Below, in pieces: positions 12,845-59,062 of a stretch of DNA of 64,000 nucleotides. Each line of letters starts with the position of its first letter. Position 1 is the stretch's first letter. Source of the DNA: Oscillospiraceae bacterium (GTDB taxonomy: Bacteria; Bacillota; Clostridia; Oscillospirales; Oscillospiraceae); contig CACZDN010000014.1 of assembly GCA_902779945.1 (NCBI GenBank), positions 1-64,000 of the forward strand. Reading direction: 5' to 3'. A program made the position numbers and the translations under genes. The notes under the pieces were generated by a model. It was given only the letters and a program-made list of their open reading frames with translations, searched no databases and was not told the origin of the DNA.

Positions 12845-12853
12845 GTTCATGTA

Positions 12854-28209: not shown

Positions 28210-28215
28210 TCCTAA

Positions 28216-28364
28216 GGCAACACCGCGCAATTCGCCTGCGGCATCTCCTGGAAAATTTGCGCCCTGATTTCGAGCCTTTTTCTTGAGGTACACAAAGTAC
28301 ATCTGCGAAAACAGAACCCGAATATTCTCAGGATCTGCTCTTGCCGAATTATGCGGTATTGCCC
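28216..28364 (-). mobile_element. MITE-like element, copy B
   Basis: Starts GGCAACACCGCGCAATTCGC and ends GCGGTATTGCCC, flanked on both sides by TAA (28213 and 28365), consistent with a 3-bp target duplication. It lies just after the hydrolase-ligase stop. Confidence 0.85.
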
Positions 28365-28367
28365 TAA

Positions 28368-33338: not shown

Positions 33339-33367
33339 AGACCGACAAGGCCCGGAGAGAGGGCTTA

Positions 33368-33527
33368 GGGCAGCACCGCACAATTCGGCGAGAGCGAATC
33401 CTGAGAAAAATTGGGTTCTGGCGATGGCAGTTTTTCGCAGGAATACTTTGTGTATTGCGAGAAAAAGTGACGAAGTCAGGGCACTATTTTTCCAGGAGGC
33501 GCCGATGGCGGATTGTGCGGTGTTGCC
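33368..33527 (+). mobile_element. MITE-like element, copy C
   Basis: Full copy from GGGCAGCACCGCACAATTCG to GCGGTGTTGCC, flanked by TTA at 33365 and 33528. The right-hand TTA is the stop codon (TAA on the minus strand) of the S66 peptidase gene. Confidence 0.9.
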
Positions 33528-36917: not shown

Positions 36918-37016
36918 GGCAATACCGCATAATTCGGCAAGAGCAGATCCTGAGAAAAATTGGGTTCTGATAAAGGCACTTTTTCGCAGATGTACTTTGT
37001 GTACCTCAAGAAAAAA
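36918..37016 (+). mobile_element. MITE-like element, copy D (half)
   Basis: Begins GGCAATACCGCATAATTCGG and matches the other copies through the central GTACTTTGTGTACCTCAAG block, then stops. The distal half is missing. Confidence 0.7.
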
Positions 37017-38977: not shown

Positions 38978-38988
38978 GTTATTTCTAA

Positions 38989-39100
38989 GGCAATACCACA
39001 TAATTCGGTAAGAACAGATCCTGAGAAAATTTGGGTTCTGATAAAGGCGCTTTTTCGCAGATGTACTTTGTGTACCTCAAGAAAAAGGCTCGAAATCGTC
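38989..39100 (+). mobile_element. MITE-like element, copy E (partial)
   Basis: GGCAATACCACATAATTCGG after TAA (38986-38988), continuing through the GTACTTTGTGTACC core and into CTCGAAATC; the distal end is lost. Confidence 0.7.
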
Positions 39101-40732: not shown

Positions 40733-42145
40733 ATGAAGGAGCTCAATGTTAACGGCGCCGTCGTGCAGGCCTATCCGCTGACCGCGGCGCAGCGCATCCA
40801 TTTCTACACCGTATCCGCCTGCCAGAGACACGAGCTTCTGAATATTGCCACCGGCTTTTATATCGAGTTTGCGGATGTGGATTTCGACACCCTGCGCGAG
40901 TGTATCATGGACGGTTACCGGAAGTTTGAGGCCATGCGCCTGCGTATCGTCATGGACGGGGAGACCCCGCTCCAGTACCTGGTGCCCACCGAGGACCGGG
41001 AGATCCGGCTTGTGGACTTTTCGTCCTGGCGGGAGGAGGACGCACACGCGGAGATGACGCGCTGGAGCAAGATCCCCCTGCATATGGACGGCACCCCGCT
41101 GAACGAGATCGTCATGATCCGGCTGCCCAATAATTTCAATGGCCTGTATATGAAGGTCCACCACATGACCATGGACTCCACGGCCATCATCAGCTTTTAC
41201 AGCTATGTGCTGAACCTCTACTGCTGCAGGAAGTTCGAGAACATTGAAGAGCCGAAGCCGCCGAAGAGCTATCTCGCCCAGCTCAAGCTGGACCTGGCCT
41301 ACGAGGACAACAGCCCCGCCATGCAGCGGGACGAGAAGTTCTGGATGGAAAAGCTCAGCGAACCGGAGCCCATCTATACCCCGTTCAGTCCCCGCAACCG
41401 CCTTCTGGAACTGCGTGAGCAGACGGGCAACCCAAATCTCCGGGCCTGCTACGGTACCGGCGACATCGAGGCGGACATCAAGGTCTACGAGCTGGAGGAT
41501 GAGCCTTCAAAGGCTCTGCTGCGTTTCAGCAGGGAGTATCACATCCCCATCGCGTCGATCCTGCTGCTGGGCCTGCGCACCACCTTCTCTCACTTTGCCG
41601 GCGGCGAAAAGGACGTGAGCGTGAAAAACGCCGTGGCCCGCCGCGGCACGCTGCTGGAGAGCCAGTCCGGCGGCACGCGCATCCACTTCTGGCCCCTGCG
41701 CACGGTTATCGAGCCGGAGACCAGCTTCCTCGACGCGCTGAAAATCGTCCAGGCCAAGGAAAACGCTCTTCTGCGCCACGCAAATTACGACCCCATCCGC
41801 TACATGGGCGCGGTCGGCGCACACTATGGCGCGCCCCGTGGCACGGGCTACGAGTGCACGACCCTGACCTATCAGCCGGTGTCCGCCGCCTCGCTCAAGG
41901 GCCGCGCAATCCCCGACATGAACTTCATGAGCAAGTGGTACACCAACGGCGTGGCCATGCAGCTCATCTACATCACAGTCATGCACCGCCCCACCGACAA
42001 CGGCTTCAGCTTCCACTTCGAATATGAGAAGAACTCCGTCTCGCTGGATGAGATCGAGAAGCTCTACTTCTACCTCTGTCGCGCCATCTTCCGCGGCATC
42101 GAGGATCCGAACCGCACCATCGGCGAGATCCTGGAGTGGATGTAA
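40733..42145 (+). CDS. Stand-alone condensation-domain protein
   Basis: 470 residues, ATG after AAAGGAGGAGTGATCCG. NRPS-type condensation fold: YPLTAAQRIHFYT at the N-terminus and the catalytic motif in MKVHHMTMDSTAI (HHxxxDS, where DG is usual). The second half contains the NAVARRGT and TYQPVSA segments. It would join an acyl group carried on the nearby ACP to an amine or alcohol. It has no fused carrier or adenylation domain; both are separate genes immediately downstream, so the three make a dissociated NRPS-like or acyl-transfer module. Confidence 0.87.
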   Translation: MKELNVNGAVVQAYPLTAAQRIHFYTVSACQRHELLNIATGFYIEFADVDFDTLRECIMDGYRKFEAMRLRIVMDGETPLQYLVPTEDREIRLVDFSSWREEDAHAEMTRWSKIPLHMDGTPLNEIVMIRLPNNFNGLYMKVHHMTMDSTAIISFYSYVLNLYCCRKFENIEEPKPPKSYLAQLKLDLAYEDNSPAMQRDEKFWMEKLSEPEPIYTPFSPRNRLLELREQTGNPNLRACYGTGDIEADIKVYELEDEPSKALLRFSREYHIPIASILLLGLRTTFSHFAGGEKDVSVKNAVARRGTLLESQSGGTRIHFWPLRTVIEPETSFLDALKIVQAKENALLRHANYDPIRYMGAVGAHYGAPRGTGYECTTLTYQPVSAASLKGRAIPDMNFMSKWYTNGVAMQLIYITVMHRPTDNGFSFHFEYEKNSVSLDEIEKLYFYLCRAIFRGIEDPNRTIGEILEWM

Positions 42146-42227
42146 AACAGGCGCCCGCGTATGGCAAGACCGCGCAGGGCTGTCACCGGCACGCATACGA
42201 TGAGAATCAAAAGGAGGATACAGAAAC

Positions 42228-42461
42228 ATGTTGGAACAAGTCAGAGAGATCATGACCCGCTATGTCGAGCTGGAGCCGGAGCAGATCGTGCCGGACTCGA
42301 AGCTGGCCGAAGAGCTGGGGCTCACCTCCTTCGCCGTCATGAGCATGATGGGCGACTTTGAGGAGGAGTTCGGTATCACGGTGGACGAAAACGAGCTCAC
42401 CGATATCCATACCGTGGGCGACATCATCGCCTATCTGGAGAAAAAGCAGGCCGAGGGATGA
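42228..42461 (+). CDS. Acyl carrier protein
   Basis: 77 residues, ATG after AAGGAGG. The phosphopantetheine site is in EELGLTSFAVMSMMGDFEEEF (Ser of LTSF; family usually DSL). Acidic helices as expected. It overlaps the following ligase gene by four bases (ATGA), so carrier and loading enzyme are coupled. It is more likely dedicated to this cluster than the fatty-acid-synthase ACP. Confidence 0.93.
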   Translation: MLEQVREIMTRYVELEPEQIVPDSKLAEELGLTSFAVMSMMGDFEEEFGITVDENELTDIHTVGDIIAYLEKKQAEG

Positions 42462-43996
42462 AAACAGAAGAACTGCACAGCCTCCGGGACCTGGTAGTCC
42501 TGGCCGCGAAGGAGCGGCCCGATAAGGTCTGGCTGCGGGAGAAGGCGAACAGGGACATCGCGGAGAAGACCTTCGGCGGATTCCTGGAGGACTGCCGTAA
42601 AGTCGCCGCCTTCCTGGAAAAGCAGGGGCCGGCCCCGGTCCACGCGGGCCTCGTCGGCAGCTCGGGCATCGCCTATATCACCTGTCTTCTGGGGACCGCG
42701 GCCTCCGGGAATCTGGCCGTGCCCATCGACCCGCAACTCGCTCCGGAGGAGATCACGGACAACCTCAACCGGGCCGACGTGACGGTGCTCTTCTACGACC
42801 GGCGCTTCCGGAGCCTCGCGGACGCGGTGCGGGACGCCTGCCCGCAGATCACCGCCGCCGTGTGCTTCACCGCCGAAGAGGGCTGCTTTTCTCTCCCGGA
42901 GCTGCTGGAAGGGGAGCCCCCCGCGGAGCTTCCGCCCGTCGATCCCCAAAGCTGCGCCTGTATCCTCTATACCTCCGGCACCACGGGCAAGAGCAAGGGC
43001 GTGATGCTCTCCCACGCAAACCTCATCGACAACGCCACCTGCTGCGACAATGAGGGCAGCGACCGCGACGTACTGCTCTCCGTGCTGCCAATCCATCATG
43101 CCTACTGTCTCACCTGCGACGTGCTGCTATCCCTGCGCTACGGGGCGACCCTTTGCATCAACGACTCGCCCATGCGTCTTGTGCAGAACATCAGGCTCTT
43201 TAAGCCCACCAAGCTCCTGCTGGTGCCCCTGATCGCGGAGACCATCTACCGCCGCATCATGGCGGAGAAGAAAAAGAACCCGCTGATCCCCCTGAAGCTG
43301 GCGGGCCGCGCGGTCTTCGGCAGGGAGCTTGAGGTTATCTTCTGCGGCGGGGCCTACCTCTCACCGGAGCTCAGCCGGGCCTATGAGAAGATGGGCTACC
43401 CGATCCTCCAGGGCTACGGGATGACCGAGTGCTCCCCGCGCATCACCTCCTCGAGCCAGGCCGACCCCTCCACCGGCGAGGACGTGGGCCGCGTCGTCAA
43501 AAACTGCGAGGTCAGGATCGAGGACGGGGAAATACTGGCAAAGAGCCCGTCGGTCATGCTGGGCTACTACAAAAACCCGGAGGCCACCGCGGAGATGTTT
43601 ACGGAGGACGGCTGGCTCAAAACCGGGGACCTGGGCTATGTAAAGGACCAGCGCATTTATATTACCGGGCGGAAAAAGAACCTTATTATCCTCTCCAACG
43701 GCGAGAACGTCTCCCCTGAGGAACTGGAAAACCGCTTTGCCGGCAGCGAGTGGATGAGCGAGATCATGGTCTACTCCGAGGAGGAGCAGATCACCGCCGA
43801 GGTCTATCCCTTCCCCGAGTACGCGGACAGGGCCGAGACGCTGTTTCGGAAGAAGGTGGAGGAGATCAACAAAAAAGTCCCGCCCGCAAAGCGCATCGTC
43901 CGTCTGCGCCTGCGCGACCGGGAATTTGAGAAGACCACCTCCCGTAAGGTCAAGCGCAACCAGACCGGTGAAAAGGGCCGGCTGCTGATGAATTAA
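42458..43996 (+). CDS. AMP-dependent acyl ligase (acyl-ACP/CoA synthetase)
   Basis: 512 residues. ANL enzyme with canonical motifs: LYTSGTTGKSKGVMLSHANL, GYGMTECSP, LKTGDLGYV, YITGRKKNLIILSNGENVSP, and C-terminal TTSRKVKRNQ with the likely catalytic Lys. Most similar to long-chain fatty acyl ligases. The translational coupling to the ACP gene suggests that it loads a fatty acid onto that carrier. Ends at a double-hairpin terminator facing the RiPP precursor. Confidence 0.9.
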   Translation: MKTEELHSLRDLVVLAAKERPDKVWLREKANRDIAEKTFGGFLEDCRKVAAFLEKQGPAPVHAGLVGSSGIAYITCLLGTAASGNLAVPIDPQLAPEEITDNLNRADVTVLFYDRRFRSLADAVRDACPQITAAVCFTAEEGCFSLPELLEGEPPAELPPVDPQSCACILYTSGTTGKSKGVMLSHANLIDNATCCDNEGSDRDVLLSVLPIHHAYCLTCDVLLSLRYGATLCINDSPMRLVQNIRLFKPTKLLLVPLIAETIYRRIMAEKKKNPLIPLKLAGRAVFGRELEVIFCGGAYLSPELSRAYEKMGYPILQGYGMTECSPRITSSSQADPSTGEDVGRVVKNCEVRIEDGEILAKSPSVMLGYYKNPEATAEMFTEDGWLKTGDLGYVKDQRIYITGRKKNLIILSNGENVSPEELENRFAGSEWMSEIMVYSEEEQITAEVYPFPEYADRAETLFRKKVEEINKKVPPAKRIVRLRLRDREFEKTTSRKVKRNQTGEKGRLLMN

Positions 43997-44001: not shown

Positions 44002-44113
44002 TTCCCTGACAGAGAGAAGACAAGAAAATTTTTTCCGGAAGGGCTTCCGGGGTTCTGTCAGGGAAGAGAATAAACCGGGAAGACCGCACAATGCTGCGGT
44101 CTTCCCGGTTTTT
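44002..44113. terminator. Two hairpins forming a bidirectional terminator
   Basis: TTCCCTGACAGA/TCTGTCAGGGAA (44002-44065) encloses a small CCGGAA hairpin. It is followed by ACCGGGAAGACCGCA/TGCGGTCTTCCCGGT (44074-44109) with TTTT on the right and an AT-rich run on the left. It separates the convergent ligase and precursor genes. Confidence 0.85.
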
Positions 44114-44162
44114 GACGCCTCTGATGCGCTGGCTGCTTTCCGGAAGTGCTTCCGGCTGCGCT

Positions 44163-45068
44163 TTAACCTGCGCTGCCAAACGACGCTCCGCCGAGGGGAT
44201 TGCCGCCGGATGCGTTTCCTTCGGGGCCCGAATAGGACAGGCAGCCCTCTGCCTTGCAGCCCTCTGCCACGCAGCCGGCGAAAGCCGTGCAGAAGTCGGC
44301 GGCGCAGCCCTTTGCAATACAGCCCGCGTGGCCGACGCAGGCGTCGCCGCCGCAGCCCTTCGCGATACAGGCGACATTGCCGCCGCAGGCGTCGCCGCCG
44401 CAGACGTTGTTCACGCAGCCGGCCTGAGCGCCGCAGGCATCGGCGGTACAGCCTTTCATCAGGCAGCCGGCCTGAGCGCCGCAGGCGTCTGCCACACAGC
44501 CTGCGGTAAGGCAGCCCGCGTAACCCCCGCAGGCGTCGGCTGTGCAGCCCTTCAAGACGCAGCCGGCCTCGCCGCCGCAGGCCTGCCCGCCGCAGGCTTC
44601 TCCGGCACATGCGGCATGCCCGCCGCAGCCCTTGCCGCCGCAGGCCTGCCCGCCGCATCCGGCGTCCGCCGGGCAGCCTGCCGCGCCGCAGGCGTCTGCA
44701 CCGCAGGATGCAGCGCTGACGGCGGCGGCGCAGGCGGAGATGATCACCACCACCGAGACGCCGAGATTGGGGTCTTTCGGGTCTCTTTTCCCGTTGAGGG
44801 TCCTCTCGTTTTTCCCGCCGGCGATCGCATCCAGCTCACGCGGGTCGAGCTCTTCCCCGACAAAGTCCGGCAGCACGTAGGTTTCGCCGTAGCCCTCGTC
44901 CTGCTCAATGAAGTTCAGGCGAAAGCCCTCCTCCAGCGGCCTTCCGGCCAGCTCCTCCACGGCGGCTTTGGCGTCCTTGTGCGCCTTCTCCCGAAAGTCG
45001 GGGTCCTCTGCCAGCGCCTTGTTGATCTTCAGGTACAGCTCCTCCAGTTCCTTCTGTGTCCAGCTCAT
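44163..45068 (-). CDS. NHLP-leader RiPP precursor with giant Cys-repeat core
   Basis: 301 residues, ATG 45068 after AAGGAGGAACGCGT. Residues 1-85 are a nitrile-hydratase-like leader: NKALAEDPDFREKAHKDAKA, YVLPDFVGEEL and ELDAIAGG, the expected cleavage site. The core (~216 residues) begins with a charged stretch and a hydrophobic VSVVVIISAC. It then consists of repeats with Cys every 5-6 residues, as in KGCTADACGAQAGC, 31 Cys in all, plus Gly, Ala and few other residues. Context implies modification by the radical SAM enzymes and export by the NHLM transporter. Alternatively it may be a Cys-rich surface or metal-binding protein. Confidence 0.88.
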   Translation of the reverse strand: MSWTQKELEELYLKINKALAEDPDFREKAHKDAKAAVEELAGRPLEEGFRLNFIEQDEGYGETYVLPDFVGEELDPRELDAIAGGKNERTLNGKRDPKDPNLGVSVVVIISACAAAVSAASCGADACGAAGCPADAGCGGQACGGKGCGGHAACAGEACGGQACGGEAGCVLKGCTADACGGYAGCLTAGCVADACGAQAGCLMKGCTADACGAQAGCVNNVCGGDACGGNVACIAKGCGGDACVGHAGCIAKGCAADFCTAFAGCVAEGCKAEGCLSYSGPEGNASGGNPLGGASFGSAG

Positions 45069-45091
45069 ACGCGTTCCTCCTTATGATCGGG

Positions 45092-45400
45092 TTTACGATA
45101 AAAGCTGAGCCCTTTATCGTAATTTTTGAGTGTGCGAAATCCTCGCCGCTCACGCGGCAACCGGTTTTATGCACATCTAAGGCAACACCGCACAATCCGC
45201 CATCGGCGCCTCCTGGAAAAATAGTGCCCTGACTTCGAGCCTTTTTCTTGCAATACACAAAGTATTCCTGCGAAACTGCCATCGCCAGAACCCAATTTTT
45301 CTCAGGATTCGCTCTCGCCGAATTGTGTGGTGCTGCCCTAAATCCCCATGAATCTACTTGTATTCATTGCGGCAAGGTTTGCCGCATGGGGATTTACGGT
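45092..45400 (+). repeat. Structured intergenic repeat, interrupted by a MITE
   Basis: Same module order as 13318-13466: TTACGATAAA..TTTATCGTAA (45093-45122), CGAAATCCTCGCCGCTCA, GCGGCAACCGG, then, after the inserted element, AAATCCCCATGAAT...CGGCAAGGTTTGCCGCATGGGG. It lies upstream of the giant precursor and may hold its promoter or a transcript-processing hairpin. Confidence 0.8.
45181..45338 (-). mobile_element. MITE-like element, copy F
   Basis: Complete copy from GGCAACACCGCACAATCCGC to GTGTGGTGCTGCCC, flanked by TAA at 45178 and 45339. The uninterrupted homologous site near 13405 has a single TAA-like position, so this is a filled site against an empty one. Confidence 0.92.
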
Positions 45401-45426: not shown

Positions 45427-46764
45427 TCAGGCGGCAAGCCTGAGATAGCCGCGGATAAACAGTTGATTCATCAGCCTGTAGTACGCCTCCCGCCCTTCGG
45501 AGGGCAGACGGATCGCCTCCTGAAGCCGCTCCAGCGTGAGACCGGAATCCAGCAGCTCTAATGTCCGCAGCGTATAGGCGTTCGCGGAGATGCGGTAGCC
45601 GACTCCGTCCCCGAGAAAGAGGACGGCGTTTTCCTCCGGGACAACGTTGCAGCTTCTGTTCAGCGCCAACGGGCGGCCGAGGGGCAGCAGGCCGACAGCC
45701 CAGGTCTCCGTCAGATACCGGAGCTTGCTTCGAAAGTCCGCTGCGCCGTCAAAGCGCAGCGTCTCCCGGACGCGCACGCCCAGCGGAAAAACACTGTCCG
45801 GCAGCTCCGGCTCCACAAACTGCATTGTACGCTCTGCCATGTTCACCCGCATGCCCGCGATGCAGCAGATGCTGTAAGGCAGCCCTGCCGGCTTGCCGCT
45901 CCTGCCGTCTCTGGCCCGCCCGGAGGCGGCATACTGATTCAGCGACTCCGGGTTGTTGGACAGAAGCTCCACATCCGCCAGCTCCTCCGGGGAGAAGGCC
46001 TCTGCGATGCGATGAAACTGAGCCCTTGTGCGGATGCTGAAGCGGAGCGCGGCCTGCCGGCGCAGACGGTCCGCCCCGATCCGGCACATCAGACGGCGCA
46101 CCCGCTCTGTGTCCCGCTCTGCTATGGCGGTGGTCGTCTGCGGAAGCTGCCCGGTGACGTCCTCAAAATCCGCGAGAAAGCGCTCGTAATCCGGGTTATC
46201 CAGCGGCTCGGTCGCGAGGTAACAGGGCGAGCTTCCGGCGACCGGCCCCAGCAGCTCGACGCTGCTTTGCAGCACCCCCCGCCAGAGCACGGCGTTTTCC
46301 GGCGTGTACCGGAAATCCGCCTGCCAGCGCGGGGCGTCCAGCCCGCAGAAGGGACACTGGACCGAGCAGCCCAGACTCAGCTCAAAACAGAGAGGGAAAT
46401 AGCGGATGTTGTCGTGAAAGCGCAGAAGCCCGCTCTCCATCCGGCAGCGGTTGCGGGTCGTGTCGGAAAAACGGAAAAGCGCTTCGTTCGCGAAGGCCGC
46501 CCTGCCGTGAGAGTGCGCGACAAACTCACTCACAACGCGGTTGCGGCGCATGTATTCGGCAACATAGGGGTTTTCGGCTTCACCAGCCGCGCAGCCGCGG
46601 GCGATGACCGTGAACCCCCGCAGCGCGAGGGCAGGATCACCGAGCGTGAAGCCGAGACTCCCGGCAGCGCCGGCGGGGTCCTCCGCCGCGTGCCGCCGGA
46701 AATCGGGATCGACGCGGTAGAAGTCCGCCGCACGTTTGAAGCGGGCGTATTCTGAGTCGTTCAC
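45427..46764 (-). CDS. PoyD-like radical SAM peptide epimerase (putative)
   Basis: 445 residues. Radical SAM cluster motif C-x3-C-x2-C in LSLGCSVQCPFCGLDAPRW, the wording typical of the RiPP maturation amino-acid epimerases related to PoyD/OspD. An N-terminal ~40-residue segment (YRVDPDFRRHAAEDPAGA) resembles Nif11/NHLP-like leader-binding or leader-like sequences. Such enzymes invert L- to D-residues in proteusin cores. It overlaps the SPASM enzyme gene by four bases and is the last modifying enzyme before the precursor. The assignment rests on motif and context. Confidence 0.68.
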   Translation of the reverse strand: MNDSEYARFKRAADFYRVDPDFRRHAAEDPAGAAGSLGFTLGDPALALRGFTVIARGCAAGEAENPYVAEYMRRNRVVSEFVAHSHGRAAFANEALFRFSDTTRNRCRMESGLLRFHDNIRYFPLCFELSLGCSVQCPFCGLDAPRWQADFRYTPENAVLWRGVLQSSVELLGPVAGSSPCYLATEPLDNPDYERFLADFEDVTGQLPQTTTAIAERDTERVRRLMCRIGADRLRRQAALRFSIRTRAQFHRIAEAFSPEELADVELLSNNPESLNQYAASGRARDGRSGKPAGLPYSICCIAGMRVNMAERTMQFVEPELPDSVFPLGVRVRETLRFDGAADFRSKLRYLTETWAVGLLPLGRPLALNRSCNVVPEENAVLFLGDGVGYRISANAYTLRTLELLDSGLTLERLQEAIRLPSEGREAYYRLMNQLFIRGYLRLAA

Positions 46765-48116
46765 GGCTTTTGCTCCCGCTTTTGCCGCGCAAGCTCCTTC
46801 TTCCGCTCAAAGTGCAGCTCCAGCAGGTTTTCCAGATTCTCCTTGAAATAGGAGCAGGAGCTCTGCGGCTGCGTGCTGTGCAGATTGTTCTGACGGATCC
46901 GGTGGCAGCCGCCGTCGCAGATGGGGAAATAGAAGCACTCCCGGCACTCCTGCGAGTCGAGGTAGCTGCAGCCCGTCATGCCCTCGGCAATGAGCGCCAT
47001 GTTCCAGTCTCTGAGATTGTCCACATTGCCGACCACGCGCTCCGGGATGCCCACATCGTCCCAGCACTTGTATACCTCGCCCTCCGGCCCAATGACGAAG
47101 GCGTTGCGCCGCGTCAGGATGCAGCCCTGCATCCGTCTCTCGGGGAAGAGGGAGAACGGGGCGATCTGGTATTTCTCCATCATATGGGTCAGAAACTCGC
47201 CCTGCTGCACCGGATCGAAGAAGCAGCTGTGGTCCGGGTGATCGTCGCCCTTTACAAAGCCGGGATATACGGTGATGCGCTTTCCGAAGTCCGCAGGGTA
47301 GCGCTCGCGGATCAGATTGTAGACCTGCGCAAACTCATCCTCGTTGCGGCTGTCCACATTCACGCGGACGTGGAGCGTCCCGCGGAAATCGGAGGCCATG
47401 ACACCGTCGATATTCTCCAGGATGCGGTCATAGGTTTCGCCGCCGCCGCGCAGAAAGCGGCGGGAATTGTGCGTCTCCCGCGCCCCGTCCAGCGTGATCT
47501 GCAGATAGCTGACCCGCAGCTCGTTGAGGCGGTCCGCCTTGTCCCGCGTCAGGAGATAGCCGTTGGTGATCATGGAGGCGCTGTAGTTTTTGCCCATGTC
47601 CTGGAGCCTGCGGTTGATGCTCACGATGCGGTCAAAGGCCAGCAGCGGCTCCCCGCCGTACCAGGTGATGGACAGATTATCCGCCTTGAATTTCTGGATG
47701 AAGCGCATGACCCTGTCCTCGGTCTCCTGCGTCATGACGGGGCCGCTGTGGCTGCTCTCGAAGCAATAGCTGCAATCAAAGTTGCAGGCCAGGGACAGCG
47801 CGAAGGTGATCATCAGGCTCCGGTTGCCGTACAGGAAGGACAGCGTGCGCATCTTGTGTATGTTGTAAAAATCGTCGTCCTTGGAGTCCTCCACAAGAAA
47901 GCCCAGAGAACGAAGCTGCATATACAGCATGGGGAAGGGAGAATAGTCAAAGCCCTCCGGATCGGCCATGATGGCGCGGATGGCGGGCAGCTGCGCCTCC
48001 CCCACGGTCAGGAACGATCTGGACACCGTGTTGAACAGCAGCCAGCCGTTGCGTTTGGATTCAAACAGAATGCTGTATCTGGACCATTTCATGAAGCAAG
48101 CCCCCAGCTCTGTCAT
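46761..48116 (-). CDS. Radical SAM/SPASM peptide-modifying enzyme
   Basis: 451 residues, ATG at 48116 overlapping the precursor-B stop (ATGA). An N-terminal ~95-residue region may recognise leaders. Radical SAM motif LACNFDCSYCFE (Cx3Cx2C), TWYGGEPLL, and a SPASM/twitch C-terminus with many Cys: QGCILTRRNA, YKCWDDVG, SQECRECFYFPICDGGCH and a final SSCSYF. Related enzymes (anaerobic sulfatase maturase-like, AlbA/PqqE type) form thioether or C-C crosslinks. With Cys-rich substrates encoded on both sides, thioether formation is the natural inference. Confidence 0.9.
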   Translation of the reverse strand: MTELGACFMKWSRYSILFESKRNGWLLFNTVSRSFLTVGEAQLPAIRAIMADPEGFDYSPFPMLYMQLRSLGFLVEDSKDDDFYNIHKMRTLSFLYGNRSLMITFALSLACNFDCSYCFESSHSGPVMTQETEDRVMRFIQKFKADNLSITWYGGEPLLAFDRIVSINRRLQDMGKNYSASMITNGYLLTRDKADRLNELRVSYLQITLDGARETHNSRRFLRGGGETYDRILENIDGVMASDFRGTLHVRVNVDSRNEDEFAQVYNLIRERYPADFGKRITVYPGFVKGDDHPDHSCFFDPVQQGEFLTHMMEKYQIAPFSLFPERRMQGCILTRRNAFVIGPEGEVYKCWDDVGIPERVVGNVDNLRDWNMALIAEGMTGCSYLDSQECRECFYFPICDGGCHRIRQNNLHSTQPQSSCSYFKENLENLLELHFERKKELARQKREQKP

Positions 48117-48613
48117 ATCCCAAAGCCGGAACCGCCGGTGCTGGCAAGCGCGGCGCAGCCGACGTCGGAGGGGCAGGGGTTGTATGGATTGCACGGCACA
48201 AACACGGAGCAGCCGGAATCGTAGGGACAGCCGCCGTAGGCACCGCATGGGGTACCGTAAACGGCACACGGGGAGCTGTCGGCGCCGCAGGGGGTCGAAT
48301 AGGCTCCGCACGAGAGCCTGGCTGCGCAGGTGTTCGCGGAGACAGTCCTCACGTTCCTGCCGCCGGCGATCGTGTCCAGCTCGTGCAGCTCGAGCTCCTG
48401 TCCGACAAAGTCGGGCAGCACATACGTTTCACCGTAACGCGCGTCCTGCTCGATGAAATCCAGGCGGAAGCCCTCCTCCAGCGGCCTGCCGGCCAGCTCT
48501 TCCACAGCGGCTCTCGCGTCCTTTTGCACCTTCTCACGGAAGGCGGGGTCCTCGGCCAGCGCTTTGTTTATCTTCTGATAAAGCGCTTCCAGTTCCTTTT
48601 GTGTACGACTCAT
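48113..48613 (-). CDS. NHLP-leader RiPP precursor with 10-Cys core
   Basis: 166 residues. The 85-residue leader is about 82 percent identical to the leader of the larger precursor and ends LDTIAGG. The ~81-residue core has 10 Cys spaced 4-6 residues apart, in contexts such as STPCGADSSPC and PCNPYNPCPSDVGC. It is richer in Pro, Tyr and Ser than the giant core and ends Gly-rich. It lies inside the operon between the export and modification genes, overlapping both by four bases, so its supply is tied to the machinery. Confidence 0.88.
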   Translation of the reverse strand: MSRTQKELEALYQKINKALAEDPAFREKVQKDARAAVEELAGRPLEEGFRLDFIEQDARYGETYVLPDFVGQELELHELDTIAGGRNVRTVSANTCAARLSCGAYSTPCGADSSPCAVYGTPCGAYGGCPYDSGCSVFVPCNPYNPCPSDVGCAALASTGGSGFGI

Positions 48614-50856
48614 GTGTATTCCTCCTTTTTTAGTGCCCCATTCTCCTGTGCCAGCTCTGCGATCTGGCGGGTGGCCATCTGCCAGAAGAGGCCCCTTTTC
48701 TCCATAAGATTCTCATAGCTGCCCTCCTCCGCGATCTGCCCCCGGTCCATCACCAGAATGCGGTCGCAATGCCGCACCGTGGACAGGCGATGGGCGACCA
48801 CGATGCGCGTGGCCCGCAGCCCGGCGAGGTTTTGTACGATCCTGTCCTGCAGAAGGTTATCCAGCGAGCTGGTAGCCTCGTCCAGAAACAGGACGGAGGG
48901 GCGGTTCACAACCGCCCTGGCCAGCAGGATACGCTGCTTCTGGCCGCCGGAGACGGTCTGTCTCTCCTCGGATACGATCGTATGCAGACCCATGGGCATG
49001 GCGCTTACGTCGTCCGTCAGACAGGCGTTGTCAACGGCCTCCCACACGCGTTCCGGCGAAATATCCGGCGCGCCGATGCTGATGTTTTTATAGATCGTGC
49101 CAGAGAACAGACACCCGTCCTGCAGCACCGTGCCGATTTTTCTTCTCAGCTCCGGCATGTTCAGCTGCTTGATGGGGATGCCGTCGTAGCAGATCACACC
49201 GCTTTTGGGGGCGTCAAAGCCCAGAAGGAGACGCAGCAGTGTGGATTTCCCGCTGCCGGAATGCCCGACGATACCAATATACTCGCCGGGATGGATGTGT
49301 ACGGAAATGTCCTTCAAAGCGGTTTGGCTCTGGCCGCTGTAGGCGAAGGAGACGTTGGAGAGCAGAATATCGCCCTTGAGATTTTGCAGGACAGTCCCGC
49401 CCTGACTTCTCTCCTCCCTGCTCTGGAGAACGTCGGAGGAATAGCGCAGGACCGGAATCATGGAGATCAGATCGGCGCAGGAGGAGGCCGTCTGGAGCAT
49501 GGCGGCGGCAAAGAAGCTGAAGGCGGTCAGAAAGCTCATAAACGTGCCGAGCGTGATCCCCGCCGTTCCGCTGCCCATCTGATGGTACAGCAGGAGTATC
49601 GCGACAGAGTTGCCCAGGGCCATTGCTTGGGTGCCGAAAAGCGAAGCGGTGCTGTTTTTTCGGTCGTTCCGGCTCAGTGCCGCCTCCTGCTGCATATACC
49701 GGTCGAGCACCACATCCTCAGCCCCGGCGGTCCGCACGGTGGCGATGCCGCCGAAGATCTGAAACAGGAAGGATTGTACCCGTCCGGTCAGCCGTGCGCG
49801 TTTGGACGAGTAGGAGCGCATGACCATGCTCATGACGACGGTCGCTGCCATCTCCAGCGCCACGACCGAAAAGCCGATTCTGGATAGAGCGGGGGAGAGC
49901 GCCAGCATTCGGCCGCAGTAGAAGAGGGAAAACCCGCTCTGCAGCACGGCCGTGAGAGCGTTTTGAAACATGCCGACAAAGGTCCCGGACAGGTTCGAAG
50001 CCTGAAAAGCCAGCACGCCGCTCTCCTTACCGGCGGTAAAGCTCTCCTCCAGATGGAACAGCCGGTCATATACGGCGGCCTGCAGCGCGTAGCGCAGCCG
50101 GTCGGTCAGACCCTGCTGGGACAGCCTCTGAATGAGTGTGAACAGAATATTTGCCAGAAGCACCGCCAGAAACAGCCCGCCCACCTCGTACATCACAAGG
50201 GCGTTGCCCATGGGGATGATCTTGTCATAGATGGCCTTGCTCAGCGCGGAGATCGCAAGCCCCACCTGGGAGACAAGGAGCATGGCTGTGAGCATCAGCA
50301 GGACGTGCCCCGGGGACAGCTCCCGCAGCGAAAAACCGAGCAGCTCCCGGGGACCTATCCGGGAGGATGTGAAGGAGCGGCACACGACCCAGGCCTGTCT
50401 GCCGAGCTTTTTGCGCTCGGCTTCCGACATGGGCCGGATAGACTCGTCCCTTGGATCAAAGACGGACAGACGGCCCGGGAAGCTCCAGAAGCACACCACC
50501 GGGGTTTCGATCACGCTGCCGGCGGAGTCCGTATCTCTGAGAAACGCCAGCACCGGCTCATATCGCCGGGAGGGCCAGGCGTCGGGAAGGGTGACCTCCC
50601 GGCAGGTAAAGCCGGACAGGCGCGCGATGTCCGAAAACCTGCGATGCTCAGGACAGGCGCGCTTCAGACGCTCATAGCGGCAGATCGGGATACCGCGCTT
50701 CTGGCATAGAAACTGGGCGGCGTCGAACAGTGGGTCGCCCGTCCACTGGCCAGGGTCGAGACTCTTGTTCCGCTCCGAGACGAAGACTGTCTGAAACCAT
50801 GCCGAGAGCCGTGCGGTCTGCCGAGCTCTCTCCGGGGATAGATTTTTGGTTATCAC
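48610..50856 (-). CDS. NHLM-system ABC transporter, ATP-binding/permease without peptidase
   Basis: 748 residues. An N-terminal ~180-residue domain lacks the Cys of C39 peptidases. Six membrane helices follow (from about LLMLTAMLLVSQVGLAISAL), then an ATPase: GHSGSGKSTLLRLL, VSGGQKQRI, VLFLDEATSSLD. It matches the second transporter of NHLM bacteriocin systems, which partners with the peptidase-containing one. It overlaps neighbours by four bases on both sides. Confidence 0.92.
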   Translation of the reverse strand: MITKNLSPERARQTARLSAWFQTVFVSERNKSLDPGQWTGDPLFDAAQFLCQKRGIPICRYERLKRACPEHRRFSDIARLSGFTCREVTLPDAWPSRRYEPVLAFLRDTDSAGSVIETPVVCFWSFPGRLSVFDPRDESIRPMSEAERKKLGRQAWVVCRSFTSSRIGPRELLGFSLRELSPGHVLLMLTAMLLVSQVGLAISALSKAIYDKIIPMGNALVMYEVGGLFLAVLLANILFTLIQRLSQQGLTDRLRYALQAAVYDRLFHLEESFTAGKESGVLAFQASNLSGTFVGMFQNALTAVLQSGFSLFYCGRMLALSPALSRIGFSVVALEMAATVVMSMVMRSYSSKRARLTGRVQSFLFQIFGGIATVRTAGAEDVVLDRYMQQEAALSRNDRKNSTASLFGTQAMALGNSVAILLLYHQMGSGTAGITLGTFMSFLTAFSFFAAAMLQTASSCADLISMIPVLRYSSDVLQSREERSQGGTVLQNLKGDILLSNVSFAYSGQSQTALKDISVHIHPGEYIGIVGHSGSGKSTLLRLLLGFDAPKSGVICYDGIPIKQLNMPELRRKIGTVLQDGCLFSGTIYKNISIGAPDISPERVWEAVDNACLTDDVSAMPMGLHTIVSEERQTVSGGQKQRILLARAVVNRPSVLFLDEATSSLDNLLQDRIVQNLAGLRATRIVVAHRLSTVRHCDRILVMDRGQIAEEGSYENLMEKRGLFWQMATRQIAELAQENGALKKEEYT

Positions 50857-53042
50857 GGCAGCGTGCTCCCTCCTCCCGCAGAGCTGTACATGCCAGCGTA
50901 CAGCCCGTTTCGTGCCATCAGGCTCTCATGTGTGCCGGCCTCCGCGATGCGCCCGTGATCCAGAACCAGGATCAGATCGCAGTCCCGGACGGCGGACAGC
51001 CTGTGTGCGACGATCAGACAGGTGCAGGATCTCCGGCGCAGCTTGTCCATGACGGCCTTCTCCGTCAGCGGGTCCATGGCGCTGGTGGCCTCGTCCAGAA
51101 ACAGGAGCGCGGGTTCCTGCAGCAGGGCGCGGGCAATGGCCAGCTGCTGCCGCTGACCGCCGGAGAGGTTTTTGCCGCCCTCTGTCAGCTCATAGTCCAG
51201 CGTACCCGGAAGCGAGCTGACAAGCTCAAGCGCGCCCGCATCCTCCAGAGCCCGGAGCACGAGCCCCTCGCTGACGTTCCGGTTCCAGAGCGTCAGATTG
51301 TTTTCCACGGTATCGGCAAAAAACGCCTCGCTTTGATTCACCATCGCCACGGCGCGCGTCAGAACCGGCCCGGGCAGGGAGGAGAGCGGGATGCCGTCCA
51401 ACAGGATCTCTCCCTGCCGGGGAACGAGCAGACCGGCGGCAAGCTTCAAAAGCGTGCTCTTCCCGCAGCCGGAGGTCCCGACGATCGCGACGCGGGCGCC
51501 CGGCTCGATCAGGGCGGAAATGCCCTGAATCACAGGCGCGGCAAGACGGTCGTACCCGAACACAAGATCGCGCAGCTCCAGCTTTCCCGAGCAGGAGAGC
51601 CCGGTATGACCGCTGTCCTCCGGAATCGTGAAGCGCGGATCGGGGGCGGCCTCCTCCACGTCCATCACGTTCATCATGTCCGCGCGCATGATCTGCGTCT
51701 GCTGCTCCATGGAGATCAGCGTGTTGATCGGGGAGGTGAAGCTGTTGTAGATCTGGCAGAAGGCAGTGAGCACGCCGACGGAAAAGCGGCCCCGGATCAC
51801 CTGGGCGCTGCCGATGATCAGCATCAGCGTTGTGAAGAGGGAGCTGATCGCGTCGGGGATGGAGGAGAGGACCTGCTGGAGTCGGGTCAGGCGCAGGTCG
51901 CTGTCCGCATAGTTTACATAATATCCAAGCAGCTCGGCGGTATAGTCGTTTTCCGTTCCGCCGGCCTTGATCGACGAAAACACGGAGAGGCCGGCGCACA
52001 GCCTGCCGTACAGCCAGTTTTCGTCCAGCTGGTGCTTCATGGAGAGGTTTTTCAGCGGCTCCAGCGTCAGCCGCAGCGCAAGCAGAGAGGCGGCCACGCC
52101 CACAAGACCCAACAGGGTCAGCAGGGGGCTGTACAGCAGCATCAGGCCGAGATAGAACACACTGATCACCAGGTTCATCAGCGTCATGAGATAGCTGCCC
52201 GCCAGATGCGCGTTGACGGCGTTGCTGCTTTGCTCGCGCTGCGAGAGCTCCCCCGCGTAGCGCTGTTCAAAAAAGGCGATGGGCAGCCGCAGCATCCGGC
52301 CGACAAGCTTGTAGTTCTCCGACAGATTCAGCTTCAGCCGGAGCCTTGCGAGAAGCTGGGAGCGCAGCACGTTCATCAAAAAGGTCGATGCGTAGACCAC
52401 GCCCATCGCGAGCAGGACGAGACTCAGCCATTCCGAATTTCTCGCGGTCATGACGTTGTCCATGAAAATCTGCGTCAGGATCGGCGCCGAAAGACTGGCC
52501 GCCAGCAGCAGAACACTGAGCAGCAGGAGATAGAGCATCAGGCTTTTTTCGGGCCTGAGCCGTTCCGAGGCCATGGAAAAAAGGCTCTCCCTCCGGCCGC
52601 GGGGCTGAAAGTCCCTGCCGGGCTCCATGCAGAGCATGACGCCGGAGTAGCAGGCTTCCAGCTCCGCCTCACTGATACGCCGATGCCCGATGATGGGGTC
52701 GTTGATCAGAACCCTGTTTTTCCGAAAGCCCTCAAGCACGACAAAGTGGTCGTCGTTCCAGAAGAGGATGCAGGGCAGCGGGGCCTTTCTGAGCTTTTGC
52801 GCCGTGGTCCGATAGCCGCCTCCCTTGAGCCCGTACTGCCTCGCGGCCGCAAGGACCCCGGACGCGGTACAGCCGTTGCGGGAGACGCCGCAGGCCTGGC
52901 GCAGTTCCTCCAGCGAGACCCGGCAGCCGTAATAGCGCAGGATCATGGAGAGGGAGGCGGCTCCGCATTCGGCGGCCTCCATCTGCAAAACCTCCGGTGT
53001 GCGTACAACGCGCTTTTTCTCAGCGCTTCCGACAGTCGTCAT
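50853..53042 (-). CDS. NHLM-system peptidase-containing ABC transporter
   Basis: 729 residues. The N-terminal C39 peptidase has catalytic Cys in MEAAECGAASLSMILRYYG and the His/Asp pair in NDDHFVVLEGF and LINDPIIG. The membrane domain follows, then the ATPase: GTSGCGKSTLLKL, LSGGQRQQLAIA, LLFLDEATSAMD. It would cleave the precursors after Gly-Gly and export the cores. All catalytic residues are present. Confidence 0.95.
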   Translation of the reverse strand: MTTVGSAEKKRVVRTPEVLQMEAAECGAASLSMILRYYGCRVSLEELRQACGVSRNGCTASGVLAAARQYGLKGGGYRTTAQKLRKAPLPCILFWNDDHFVVLEGFRKNRVLINDPIIGHRRISEAELEACYSGVMLCMEPGRDFQPRGRRESLFSMASERLRPEKSLMLYLLLLSVLLLAASLSAPILTQIFMDNVMTARNSEWLSLVLLAMGVVYASTFLMNVLRSQLLARLRLKLNLSENYKLVGRMLRLPIAFFEQRYAGELSQREQSSNAVNAHLAGSYLMTLMNLVISVFYLGLMLLYSPLLTLLGLVGVAASLLALRLTLEPLKNLSMKHQLDENWLYGRLCAGLSVFSSIKAGGTENDYTAELLGYYVNYADSDLRLTRLQQVLSSIPDAISSLFTTLMLIIGSAQVIRGRFSVGVLTAFCQIYNSFTSPINTLISMEQQTQIMRADMMNVMDVEEAAPDPRFTIPEDSGHTGLSCSGKLELRDLVFGYDRLAAPVIQGISALIEPGARVAIVGTSGCGKSTLLKLAAGLLVPRQGEILLDGIPLSSLPGPVLTRAVAMVNQSEAFFADTVENNLTLWNRNVSEGLVLRALEDAGALELVSSLPGTLDYELTEGGKNLSGGQRQQLAIARALLQEPALLFLDEATSAMDPLTEKAVMDKLRRRSCTCLIVAHRLSAVRDCDLILVLDHGRIAEAGTHESLMARNGLYAGMYSSAGGGSTLP

Positions 53043-53644
53043 GACGCAAAAAACCTGCTCAGCTGGGGGATACCCAGCGTGATGGGGTGTACGGTCTCCT
53101 GAATGATGGTGAGCGAGGCCCAGGTCCCGTCGTGGAGCTTCAGTGTCCTGCCCTTTTCGTTGGTCCAGAAGAAGCCGTTTTCCGATTCCGCGTCCTCCTT
53201 CAGCTTGCAGATCACCGTCACGCAGGGGCCGTTCGCCGCGAAGGCGTTGACGATGAGATCATCGCTGAAGAGCTTCTGCATACTGTCGACGGAGGCGGTA
53301 TACGGATCAATATAGGTAATGCTTCCGCGCATGTTTCCGTACTCTTCGAGGTTGTAGCCTGTCAGGTTCACGACTACGTCCATGCCGGTATCCAGCGTTT
53401 TCCCCGTGGTCAGGGGGACGAGCGCGATGATCTCGCCGCAGTTGGAGCTGCCGGGATGGTAGAGGGCGGTCGCGCTGACGGTGCGGCTGAGACTGCCGAA
53501 GCAGGCCCAGACCGTAAAGCCGACAAAAACGAGAAACAGACCCGTCAGCATGAGCCAGTGAACCGGCGCCGTGACGGCGAACATCCGGTCGATCCGGTCC
53601 GATTCGTTCTCGCGGGAAATTCCGTTTGGAAGATCCTGTGCCAT
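53039..53644 (-). CDS. NHLM-system secretion (HlyD-like) protein, short form
   Basis: 201 residues. One membrane helix (WLMLTGLFLVFVGFTVWACF) is followed by a beta-rich extracytoplasmic part (ALYHPGSSNCGEIIALVP, TGMDVVVNLTGY, SITYIDPY). The long coiled-coil hairpin of usual HlyD/NHLM adaptors is missing, suitable for a Gram-positive envelope. It overlaps the peptidase transporter by four bases and starts 11 bases after the methyltransferase gene. Confidence 0.78.
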   Translation of the reverse strand: MAQDLPNGISRENESDRIDRMFAVTAPVHWLMLTGLFLVFVGFTVWACFGSLSRTVSATALYHPGSSNCGEIIALVPLTTGKTLDTGMDVVVNLTGYNLEEYGNMRGSITYIDPYTASVDSMQKLFSDDLIVNAFAANGPCVTVICKLKEDAESENGFFWTNEKGRTLKLHDGTWASLTIIQETVHPITLGIPQLSRFFAS

Positions 53645-53655: not shown

Positions 53656-55554
53656 TTATTGTTCACTCCCGTCCCTGCCCGGCAGGGCCACAAGAAGGTA
53701 TTTTCCGCTGAGACAGATCAGAAAGCCGCGCTGCGTGAGCCAGTCCAGGGCGCGGTGAAGCCTCGCTTCCGACCAGGCGCCGGAAAGGCTTTCCGTAATA
53801 TGAGCCGGGGAGACGGGGCGAACGCACGCCCTGCACAGCGCGGCTTCCGCCCCGCTGAGAAAGGACACGGAGCTCACTCTGCATGGCCGCGAATCGAGCA
53901 TCATGATATACTCGCCCCGGTCCAGCATGACGAGCCGCGCAGGCTCACCGCGCTTCCAGCTGTCAAGCCAGTCCTGAACGACGCGCCTGAGCTTTTCGTA
54001 CAGGGGAAGATGCGCCTGAAACGCTTCAAAGGCTTCGCCGCCTGTCAGGTCGTAATAGAGGGCCGTGTCACGGATCAGATCCTGACTGTTCCCATACAGG
54101 AAGGGGTAGAGGGCGTTGGGACGCAGAACGAGGCCGTAGCGCTCCGGGTCCGTCAGATAGCGGCTGTATCGCTGAAAGGCGATCCGCGTGGCAATCTGCG
54201 GCGGCGGCAGGTGCGCGAGCTTCGGCAGAAGGGCCAACAGCTCCTCATAATCGGCGGCGCTCTCTCCGGGAATGGCGTAGAGGATGTTCCACATGAGGGA
54301 CACATCGTTTTGCGCGCAGGAGATCATGAACGCCACATTCTGAACCGCGCTGCCGCCCTTTCCCATGAGCTGCAGCAGATGATCCTGCAGGCTCTCGACG
54401 CCGGCCTGTACGCTGACAAAGCCGGCCCTGCGCAGGGCGGCGAGCTCCGCGTCTGTCAGATTGGTCTTCACCTCGGCCACAAAACGGTACGGCGTATGCT
54501 CCGACTCCAGGAGGGCGGGCAGCTCGCGCACCACATTGCGGCTCAGCACGTTGTCTGTCAGCTCAAAGAGGGTCGAGCCGGTCTTCCTGGAGATCTCATG
54601 AAGCTCCGCCAGCAGGCGCTGCGGCGTCTTGGCCCGGTATTTGTTCTTCTCCCCGTTGAGGCCGCAAAAGCTGCACGGGTGCTTTTCGCCCCACCAGCAC
54701 CCGCGGGAGCCCTCCACGAGAAGCAGCGGCTCCAGATCCGGCCCGTAAAAGGGACTGTTGCGCAGCAGCTCCGGCAGCTCCGGCGTCATGGCCTGCGCGA
54801 GCTGAGAGCTGAAATCGCTGAAATCAGGGACCGGCACCCGATTCATGTCCCGCGTCATGGCGTAGGGCAGCGGGTCGGGCAGGGGAGTGCCCCGACAAAT
54901 GACCCCGCAGGGCAGCGCATCCGCATCACCTGCGGCCAGGGCGCGGCAGGCCTGGGCCATGCCCTCGTCCCCCTCGCCGAGATACACGGCGTCGACCTGC
55001 GGACAAAAGCGCAGGATGGCGGCCCCGGCGCTGCCGGAACAGTTGGGCCCGCCCATCAGCGTGCGGATCTCCGGCGCCAGCTCCTTCACTCTGCGGAGGA
55101 TGGCCAGCGTTCCGTTGTTCTGGGTAAAAACGGAGCTTGCCGCGAGGACTGAAGGCCGCAGCGCCGCGATCTCACGGGCGGTCTCCTCCGTACAGAGCCC
55201 GGCGGCCCGCATCGCCCGGCGGATCAGCCCGGCAAAGACCGCAGGGTCCAGAAAAGGGTCCCGTTCGGCGGCGAGAGCGGCGTATTCGTCCACGCTCCGG
55301 GGCTCCCCGATCCCGGTCAGATGGGAAAAAATGAACTCCTCATACAGCGACATGCTCTGCAGGTTGTTCAGCCGCAGACAGAGCTCCGCCCCCATGAGCC
55401 GCACCATCCGCAGCATGGGATACAAAACCACCGAGGAAATGCCCTCCTGTGCAAGGCAGGACTTGAAGATGGACAGGGCGAGCGACTGCCGGGGAGGAAA
55501 GACATAGGGCGCGGAAAGAAAGACGACCTCCGGCCGCCGATTTGCGCTTGGCAT
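53656..55554 (-). CDS. B12-binding radical SAM RiPP C-methyltransferase-like enzyme
   Basis: 632 residues, ATG at 55554 after GGGGGAAGGAAAC. The N-terminal half is a cobalamin-binding domain (VVFLSAPYVFPP, TLMGGPNCSGSAG, AVYLGEGDEG). The radical SAM motif in GCWWGEKHPCSFCGLNGE (C-x7-C-x2-C) is the signature of RiPP maturation radical SAM proteins, the group of PoyB/PoyC-type C-methyltransferases. A ~180-residue C-terminal region ends in a winged-helix-like domain. First gene of the operon; probably methylates carbon atoms of core residues. Confidence 0.85.
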   Translation of the reverse strand: MPSANRRPEVVFLSAPYVFPPRQSLALSIFKSCLAQEGISSVVLYPMLRMVRLMGAELCLRLNNLQSMSLYEEFIFSHLTGIGEPRSVDEYAALAAERDPFLDPAVFAGLIRRAMRAAGLCTEETAREIAALRPSVLAASSVFTQNNGTLAILRRVKELAPEIRTLMGGPNCSGSAGAAILRFCPQVDAVYLGEGDEGMAQACRALAAGDADALPCGVICRGTPLPDPLPYAMTRDMNRVPVPDFSDFSSQLAQAMTPELPELLRNSPFYGPDLEPLLLVEGSRGCWWGEKHPCSFCGLNGEKNKYRAKTPQRLLAELHEISRKTGSTLFELTDNVLSRNVVRELPALLESEHTPYRFVAEVKTNLTDAELAALRRAGFVSVQAGVESLQDHLLQLMGKGGSAVQNVAFMISCAQNDVSLMWNILYAIPGESAADYEELLALLPKLAHLPPPQIATRIAFQRYSRYLTDPERYGLVLRPNALYPFLYGNSQDLIRDTALYYDLTGGEAFEAFQAHLPLYEKLRRVVQDWLDSWKRGEPARLVMLDRGEYIMMLDSRPCRVSSVSFLSGAEAALCRACVRPVSPAHITESLSGAWSEARLHRALDWLTQRGFLICLSGKYLLVALPGRDGSEQ

Positions 55555-55649
55555 GTTTCCTTCCCCCATAGGTAAGGGCCTCTCTTTCCGGACTACATAG
55601 ACCGTTTCGGGCCGGACAGGATGTGGCCCAAAATTGACTGCTTTATTCC

Positions 55650-58556: not shown

Positions 58557-58880
58557 CTGAAGCCGCATGTGCGAGCAGGCGGCCTTTCGGAAAATGCCTG
58601 AAAAAGCTCCGGCATACGCAAACCGGCTCTTGCCGTGTCCTGCTGACGCTGATATACTGTAAATATAAGCAAACATGAGATGACGTTGAGGCCTGCCTGA
58701 TCTGCCTTGTGATCACGCTCCTGCGAAAACCGCGCCCCGCCATGAGACACAGATTCGGATTTGACAGGACGGGAGAGCGCGTCCTTCGGCGGATATACCA
58801 CCGCAGCGTTCTTTACACGTTCTCGAGCGCCTTTACCGTGATGAGGAACACGGCTGTCGTAAGAGCTGTATGTTTTTGTT
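58557..58880. other. Intergenic stretch without a visible gene
   Basis: Between sdaAA and MITE copy G. I see no gene, RNA or clear terminator; short frames lack ribosome sites. Confidence 0.5.
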
Positions 58881-59040
58881 AGGGCAACACCGCATAATTC
58901 GGCGAGAGCGAATCCTGAGAAAATTTGGGTTCTGATGAAGGCTTTTTTTGCAGGAATACTTTGTGTATTTCAAGAAAAAGTGACAAAATCAGAGCGCGAA
59001 TTTTCCAGGAGGTGCCGAAGGCGAATTGCGCGGTGTTGCC
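58881..59040 (+). mobile_element. MITE-like element, copy G
   Basis: Complete: GGGCAACACCGCATAATTCG to GCGCGGTGTTGCC, flanked by TTA at 58878 and 59041. Its right end is 22 bases from the start codon of the transporter gene, just before the ribosome site AGAGAGGAG. Confidence 0.92.
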
Positions 59041-59062
59041 TTAGAGAGAGGAGTAGAAATAA

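Follow-up and report, generated by a model that had tools for sequence, protein, structure and literature searches.

A cysteine-array RiPP precursor behind an NHLP leader in an Oscillospiraceae genome, probably an enlarged representative of a small undescribed family

The window analysed here, a 64,000-nucleotide stretch of contig CACZDN010000014.1 from an Oscillospiraceae bacterium (assembly GCA_902779945.1), carries on its minus strand a gene for a RiPP precursor, termed precursor A, in which 30 of 31 cysteines follow one 5-5-6 register behind an NHLP leader. Precursor A is probably a strongly expanded RiPP of a small, undescribed family that combines NHLP leaders with a cysteine module, matured along the route proposed below. 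Read from the DNA, the gene, its leader, the register and conservation of its cysteines, its neighbours and their joint occurrence in relatives are established. A sequence-only reading that had drawn attention to this core is partly supported; it had missed the epimerase, the hydrophobic head of the core, the ten cysteines of a second precursor (precursor B) and the CefA family of cysteine-array peptides.

The precursor gene and its cysteine register

Precursor A (44163..45068, minus strand) is a 301-residue NHLP-leader RiPP precursor with an ATG start and 31 cysteines. Upstream of the ATG lies a Shine-Dalgarno sequence, AAGGAGG (45076..45082, minus strand), and a terminator-like hairpin of 17 pairs (44072..44111, minus strand) separates the gene from a convergent plus-strand operon, the hairpin scan having returned two such structures against 1.4 expected by shuffling. 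The leader, residues 1-85 (44814..45068, minus strand), ends in AIAGG with the GG at residues 84-85, and the 216-residue core after it carries all 31 cysteines. The leader matches TIGR03793 at E 9.7e-6 (25.4 bits, under the cut-off of 50.9, which four of five scanned relative precursors exceed) and the solved NHLP leader PDB 9cjx at 3.1e-11. The claim of a 216-residue, 31-cysteine core behind an NHLP leader is thus borne out by the reading frame, the GG, the structural match and the ribosome site. GC content by codon position is 0.67/0.58/0.81 in the precursor A frame and 0.77/0.59/0.67 in the overlapping plus-strand open reading frame 44091-45086, and GC3 is 0.85 in the leader and 0.79 in the core, with a range of 0.75-0.84 in six other cluster genes. 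That 44163-45068 is a genuine gene is confirmed.

The core consists, in order, of a 16-residue polar linker, a hydrophobic head, the cysteine array and a 25-residue Gly/Ser-rich tail. The head, LGVSVVVIISACAAAVSAAS (44706..44765, minus strand), has a mean hydropathy of 2.3 over 19 residues and is kept in relatives. The array (44241..44705, minus strand) runs from the second cysteine to the last and comprises nine full 16-residue units and a remainder. AlphaFold2 returned no confident fold for the unmodified core alone (mean pLDDT 42.1), and no fold is therefore claimed for precursor A.

The spacing between the first two cysteines is 9, and from there it runs 5, 5, 6 unbroken to the last cysteine, which makes the repeat unit 16 residues long with three cysteines. 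The earlier description of a cysteine every five to six residues stands, and the short motifs it gave, DACGxxAGC and KGC, are refined to this 5-5-6 unit. A single such frame takes 30 of the 31 cysteines, while 20,000 shuffles of the core gave a mean of 9.4 and a maximum of 17. Outside the cysteine columns the nine full units share a mean nucleotide identity of 57%, yet all 27 cysteines are retained, which speaks against a recent or artefactual expansion of the array. Over the 36 unit pairs, the cysteine codons (TGC, TGT) show no non-synonymous and 32 synonymous differences, and the remaining columns 300 non-synonymous and 61 synonymous; the pattern at the cysteine codons is what selection for cysteine looks like.

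A second regularity concerns the residue three places after each cysteine. Excluding the first cysteine of each A core, which sits in the hydrophobic head, D, E, N, Q, H, K, R or Y is found at +3 in 61 of 68 places, compared with 3, 3 and 1 of 68 at +1, +2 and +4. The count is made up of 27/30 in precursor A, 8/10 in precursor B, and 16/18 and 10/10 in representative relatives (five of eight relative A cores and four of nine relative B cores, near-identical ones having been dropped). Gly or Ala precedes the cysteine in 27 of the 30 places in precursor A. We read the cysteine module from these sequences as C-x-small-polar-small, in which the polar residue may be either the acceptor of a crosslink or a residue displayed outwards.

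Neighbouring genes and predicted chemistry

The cluster is transcribed on the minus strand towards precursor A, beginning with a B12-binding radical SAM RiPP C-methyltransferase (53656..55569; TIGR03975, 490 bits, cut-off 282), which also matches PF04055 and, below its cut-off, PF02310. It is followed by a short HlyD-like secretion protein (53039..53644; TIGR03794, 106 bits, cut-off 156) that covers only the C-terminal part of its model (positions 295-420 of 421), by an NHLM exporter subunit with a C39 peptidase (50853..53042; TIGR03796, 790 bits, cut-off 853; PF03412, 129 bits), which is expected to cleave after GG, and by the permease/ATPase subunit of the NHLM exporter (48610..50856; TIGR03797, 616 bits, cut-off 709). 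Then come precursor B, a second NHLP precursor whose 81-residue core has 10 cysteines spaced 6 or 7 apart (48113..48613), a CefB-like SPASM radical SAM maturase (46761..48116; NF038107, 208 bits, cut-off 600), a PoyD-type radical SAM peptide epimerase with CxxxCxxC at 133-140 (45427..46764; TIGR04517, 310 bits, cut-off 325) and, after a gap of 358 bp, precursor A. The SPASM maturase starts at 48116 or, as in its relatives, at 48092; given the longer form, five adjacent gene pairs overlap by four bases. The epimerase, the leader, both exporter genes and the HlyD-like protein score below their NCBIfam cut-offs, the E-values of the exporter, HlyD-like protein and epimerase being strong. The SPASM enzyme, methyltransferase and NHLM exporter that the sequence-only reading had named are all present as profile matches on the same strand.

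The gap between precursor A and the epimerase contains a MITE-like repeat of about 165 bp (45177-45341) with inverted ends, recognised by eye, of CTAAGGCAACACCGC...GCGGTGTTGCCCTAA. The repeat has six further matches in the window (33365-33531, 58879-59045, 22226-22367, 28212-28368, 38986-39097 and 36918-37015), two of them short. Positions 13321-13410 and 13407-13464 match the two flanks of the repeat (outer region 45093-45396), and 13321-13464 looks like the outer element without the insertion at 45177-45341. Convergent to precursor A, a stand-alone condensation domain, an acyl carrier protein and an AMP-binding ligase stand in a row on the plus strand (40733-43996); these genes, which could be a small acyl-peptide pathway, were not found in the relative loci.

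Farther off in the window, a Cas3 nuclease/helicase (9294-11846, minus strand; PF18019, PF22590) was found, and a direct-repeat scan of 7000-18000 returned no repeat array. Single open reading frames encode a MatE-family transporter fused with a histidine-kinase-like ATPase domain (60429-62213, plus strand) and a ferredoxin-like domain together with two redoxin/AhpC-like matches (18104-20152, plus strand). A large serine recombinase (513-2225, plus strand) and a nearby tRNA (3726-3801, plus strand) lie in a stretch of lower GC, possibly an integrated element.

The SPASM maturase reaches 208, 198 and 192 bits against CefB, TIGR04463 and Clo7bot, whose cut-offs are 600, 525 and 600. It also matches the thioether-forming PapB and SCIFF enzyme families, with cyclophane makers scoring much lower, and it stays far below the cut-off of each named thioether family. 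The maturase of the relative L042 scores 214 bits against NF038107. Being so far under the CefB, TIGR04463 and Clo7bot cut-offs, the window maturase seems, with its relatives, to form a group of its own. The SPASM domain model TIGR04085 matches at 52.8 bits (cut-off 27), and the CxxxCxxC at 111-118 and the SPASM cysteines are invariant in the eight aligned sequences. The best solved relative is 5wgg, which we take to be the SCIFF maturase CteB. A SPASM radical SAM enzyme thus lies in one cluster with cysteine-rich precursors, the gene content by which ranthipeptides and sactipeptides are recognised. SPASM enzymes can also form bonds other than thioethers; judging from the family company of the enzyme and the selection on cysteine, Cys-to-carbon thioether crosslinks would be the likeliest chemistry.

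TIGR04517 is matched above its cut-off of 325 by the epimerases of the relatives L042 and L072 (340 and 345 bits). A search for a solved relative of the epimerase found none. Cys372 of the epimerase is invariant in 8 of 8 aligned cluster epimerases, as one of seven invariant cysteine columns; PoyD itself stands outside this alignment, and its Cys372 is matched by number. A review reports that Cys372 of PoyD is retained without exception across close to 70 homologues and is essential for catalysis, and that PoyD epimerises every second residue without need of a leader (PMC8326336). The presence of the epimerase suggests D-residues in the product.

Relatives and the CefA model

Close relatives of the system are rare. 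A precursor A search of 60 near genomes recovered its own genome alone, and with the SPASM protein no match other than its own exceeded 33% identity at E 1e-30 among 394 genomes of the order. The best other match in 400 genomes of the family reached 201 bits, and two further SPASM matches scored 230 and 212 bits. Within 1.5 kb flanks of the order and family SPASM loci, no NHLP-type cysteine-core precursor came through the filters. The SPASM search gave three loci among viral contigs, at 30% identity over residues 103-236, and 173 plasmid records, all below 60% identity, of which three were inspected; tblastn of the precursor A core against plasmids, with the low-complexity filter on, found no match. 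A scan of the genome collection yielded one SPASM relative, 58% identical, in an uncultured Lachnospiraceae bacterium (L042). The gene is present in 7 of 47 genomes of the genus of L042 and in 2 of 348 genomes drawn from its family, one of them new (G933).

In all eight relative loci fetched, the SPASM gene shares one stretch with NHLP precursors of types A and B and with an epimerase. Since these loci were mostly found by their SPASM gene, its presence in them is by selection, and only precursor-first searches test the link the other way. A C-methyltransferase accompanies the cluster in seven of the eight, no match having been found in the 19.9 kb of L072. Full-length exporter pairs occur in L064, L065, L069 and L072, and L042 has a pair in which one gene is truncated where the stretch ends; the 8 kb contig of L066 shows no exporter, and L067 and L068 have partial matches only.

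The relatives have their A and B genes adjacent to each other and next to the SPASM gene, and both precursors carry the C-x-x-polar module. The relative A cores are 31-46 residues long (31 in L072) and begin with a hydrophobic head as in the window, VSVVLIVSACALAVGVGG in L072 and LSMLLIVSACAAAVGVG in L042, followed by few cysteines. Seven loci have five-cysteine A cores with the spacing 13, 5, 6, 5 (recounted in six), and the A core of L072 has three cysteines spaced 9, 5, precursor A beginning 9, 5, 5, 6. The relative B cores contain two cysteines (seven loci) or three (both B precursors of L072). The number of cysteines varies among homologous precursors, being 3, 5 or 31 in A cores; variation in repeat number was a check that the sequence-only reading had proposed. 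A 5-6-5 step, like an initial spacing of 9, already exists among the short relative A cores, and with a shared head and a compatible register the window precursors look like greatly lengthened versions of them. As the relatives pair similar enzymes with few-cysteine peptides, precursor A has the appearance of a greatly enlarged representative of an undescribed peptide family.

A precursor-first search of the 47 genomes found full-length cysteine-core precursors in exactly the seven genomes that carry the SPASM gene (SPASM E 1e-60). Homologues lacking any radical SAM or NHLM gene had been named as a finding that would speak against crosslinking, and among these genomes full-length cysteine-core precursors occur only together with the SPASM gene, which favours a link between the cysteine core and the radical SAM enzyme. 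Leader-only paralogues in the same genus were found at three loci, with 0, 0 and 1 cysteines in their cores, and one of these loci belongs to a genome that lacks the SPASM gene. These precursors (L085 1306-1737, minus strand; L086 1465-1899, plus strand; L084 1471-1800, minus strand) have leaders near the A leader and unrelated cores, and suggest leader reuse with core swapping.

The precursor A core also matches the CefA model NF038108 at 48 bits, above the cut-off of 30, although its spacing of 5, 5, 6 departs from the 'Cys every fifth' description of that model. The model matches simple repeats and antisense repeats as well. Among 394 genomes of the order, 24 matched at E 0.01 and five lay above the cut-off, the window genome belonging to both sets, and the follow-up covered 33 loci, several of which yielded no row through the cysteine filter. 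One match above the cut-off (G071, L012) proved to be the antisense of a pentapeptide-repeat gene, and the remaining inspected matches, judged by eye, were simple repeats. The only convincing CefA outside the window among the inspected loci is that of genome G121, with a polar residue at +3 in 9 of 11 places. No SPASM gene lies within the 17.5 kb read around it, which counts against a strict link between cysteine cores and SPASM enzymes; elsewhere G121 has a partial CefB-like frame, which covers part of the model and scores 470 bits, below the cut-off.

A Methylomagnum plasmid encodes a 679-residue CefA with a 28-cysteine array, less strict at +3 (17/28); its gene neighbours include a TIGR04463 SPASM enzyme and a radical SAM C-methyltransferase. 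Given this peptide and a named NCBI family, long cysteine arrays as such are already known. Among titles and abstract beginnings of the open-access literature, no earlier description was found of a cysteine array that is combined with both an NHLP leader and an epimerase, nor any paper on CefA/CefB or a proteusin with a cysteine-repeat core, and 'Cys-every-fifth' occurred in no paper. The Methylomagnum CefA (L057 3894-5933, plus strand) has a long N-terminal part, with a lectin match of 34 bits against a cut-off of 100, joined to its array; cysteine arrays may thus also serve as surface modules.

Proposed maturation, alternatives and known systems

Each chemical step proposed for precursor A, like the function of its product, is a prediction from gene content. 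The NHLP leader would offer the core to the modifying enzymes. The PoyD-type epimerase would introduce D-residues, the hydrophobic head being their likeliest place; the CefB-like SPASM enzyme would crosslink the cysteines, most likely as thioethers and one per C-x-x-polar-small module, and the B12 radical SAM enzyme would add C-methyl groups. After cleavage behind GG, the C39 exporter would secrete the product, whose mass without modifications is about 19.5 kDa. The presence of two precursors, a hydrophobic head and an exporter would suit a secreted peptide active on membranes, and our best guess for the function is that the exported peptide inserts a foot into the membrane and bears a stapled rod, acting either on the cell surface or against other bacteria. 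The fullest form of this proposal is possible but doubtful: a stapled nanorod exceeding 200 residues, locked by about 30 thioether staples and headed by an epimerised segment that inserts into membranes, the +3 residue serving as acceptor or display, grown from a short ancestral peptide by tandem duplication of the 16-residue three-crosslink unit.

The alternative that survives best, though unlikely, is that the action of the SPASM enzyme is confined to precursor B or to a portion of A, and that the thiols of the array form disulfides after export, giving a repeat protein filled with disulfides. The SPASM gene does lie directly behind precursor B and away from A, and pairing between coils is conceivable for 31 cysteines in regular register; in the relatives, however, both A and B adjoin the SPASM gene and share the C-x-x-polar module, and no disulfide-forming enzyme was recognised among the scanned cluster genes. 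It is less probable again that the SPASM enzyme makes another modification, such as a C-C or C-O crosslink at +3, with the cysteines free or used for recognition. The +3 position matches the cysteine in regularity, and SPASM enzymes that make cyclophanes also appear in the family scan, but residues of varied chemistry (D, K, Q, E, H, Y, N) occupy +3 where the cysteine is constant, and the cyclophane makers score much lower than the Cys-peptide maturases.

Metal binding by free thiols, the outcome that the sequence-only reading had set against crosslinking, would make the array metallothionein-like and leave the radical SAM enzymes to serve the other precursor. The very high cysteine content and the D, E, H and K at +3 would suit such a role, but CC, CxC and CxxC are each absent among the 31 cysteines, which weighs against a metallothionein-like binder while leaving it a small probability; with the leader, exporter and epimerase present and short relatives having 2 to 5 cysteines, metal binding is improbable to a marked degree. 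That the array is an artefact of low complexity, or lies antisense to some other repeat gene, and has no real product is scarcely credible, for although it is a GC-rich repeat with a long plus-strand open reading frame and the CefA model also matches an antisense pentapeptide repeat in another genome, it has a ribosome site, leader homology, GC3 like its neighbours, cysteines kept while the units diverge, a homologous head in relatives and a 16-residue period.

On the preferred reading, the expanded RiPP, three radical SAM enzymes (epimerase, SPASM maturase and C-methyltransferase) would act on one leader. The family offers a natural size series in a shared register, with 3, 5 and 31 cysteines in A cores and 2, 3 and 10 in B cores, with which one could ask how a RiPP maturase deals with a repeat, whether it works processively and at which residue the crosslink is accepted. 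Stapling along the whole array, if it occurs, would make this a covalently locked peptide rod that can be programmed genetically.

Among known systems, polytheonamide-type proteusins share with the cluster the NHLP leader with GG, the PoyD-type epimerase and the radical SAM C-methyltransferase, and differ from it in the SPASM enzyme, the cysteine array and the 216-residue core, which are features of the window. The polytheonamide core has about 50 residues, and the Val/Ile/Ala-rich start of the window core presumably resembles it. The features by which proteusins are recognised are found here as an NHLP leader with GG, sub-cut-off for TIGR03793, and a PoyD-type epimerase in the cluster. CefA/CefB (NF038108/NF038107) and TIGR04463 systems are alike in that the core scores above the CefA cut-off and in the C-x-x-polar module. 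The CefA examples, however, are spaced by 5 (some by 6 or 10) and not by 5-5-6, they lack an NHLP leader, and no epimerase match lies near the two loci read, whereas the window has one of PoyD type.

Ranthipeptides (SCIFF, freyrasin, PapB) share a SPASM enzyme and a cysteine-rich core, but unlike the window system they have short cores, other leaders and no epimerase. Freyrasin is described with six Cys-Asp thioethers (PMC8326336), and PapB is reported to act on another motif than the window module (PMC9413430). A Bacillus bacteriocin of repeated Cys-Xaa-Xaa units is likewise a RiPP core built from a repeated cysteine unit of varying number, and differs in its three-residue unit, its putative thiazole chemistry and a precursor encoded far from the enzymes (Haft 2009, PMC2674419). 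By its leader, epimerase and exporter, precursor A groups with the proteusins, and by its core with the CefA peptides; on these sequence grounds we file it as a proteusin with a Cys-array core.
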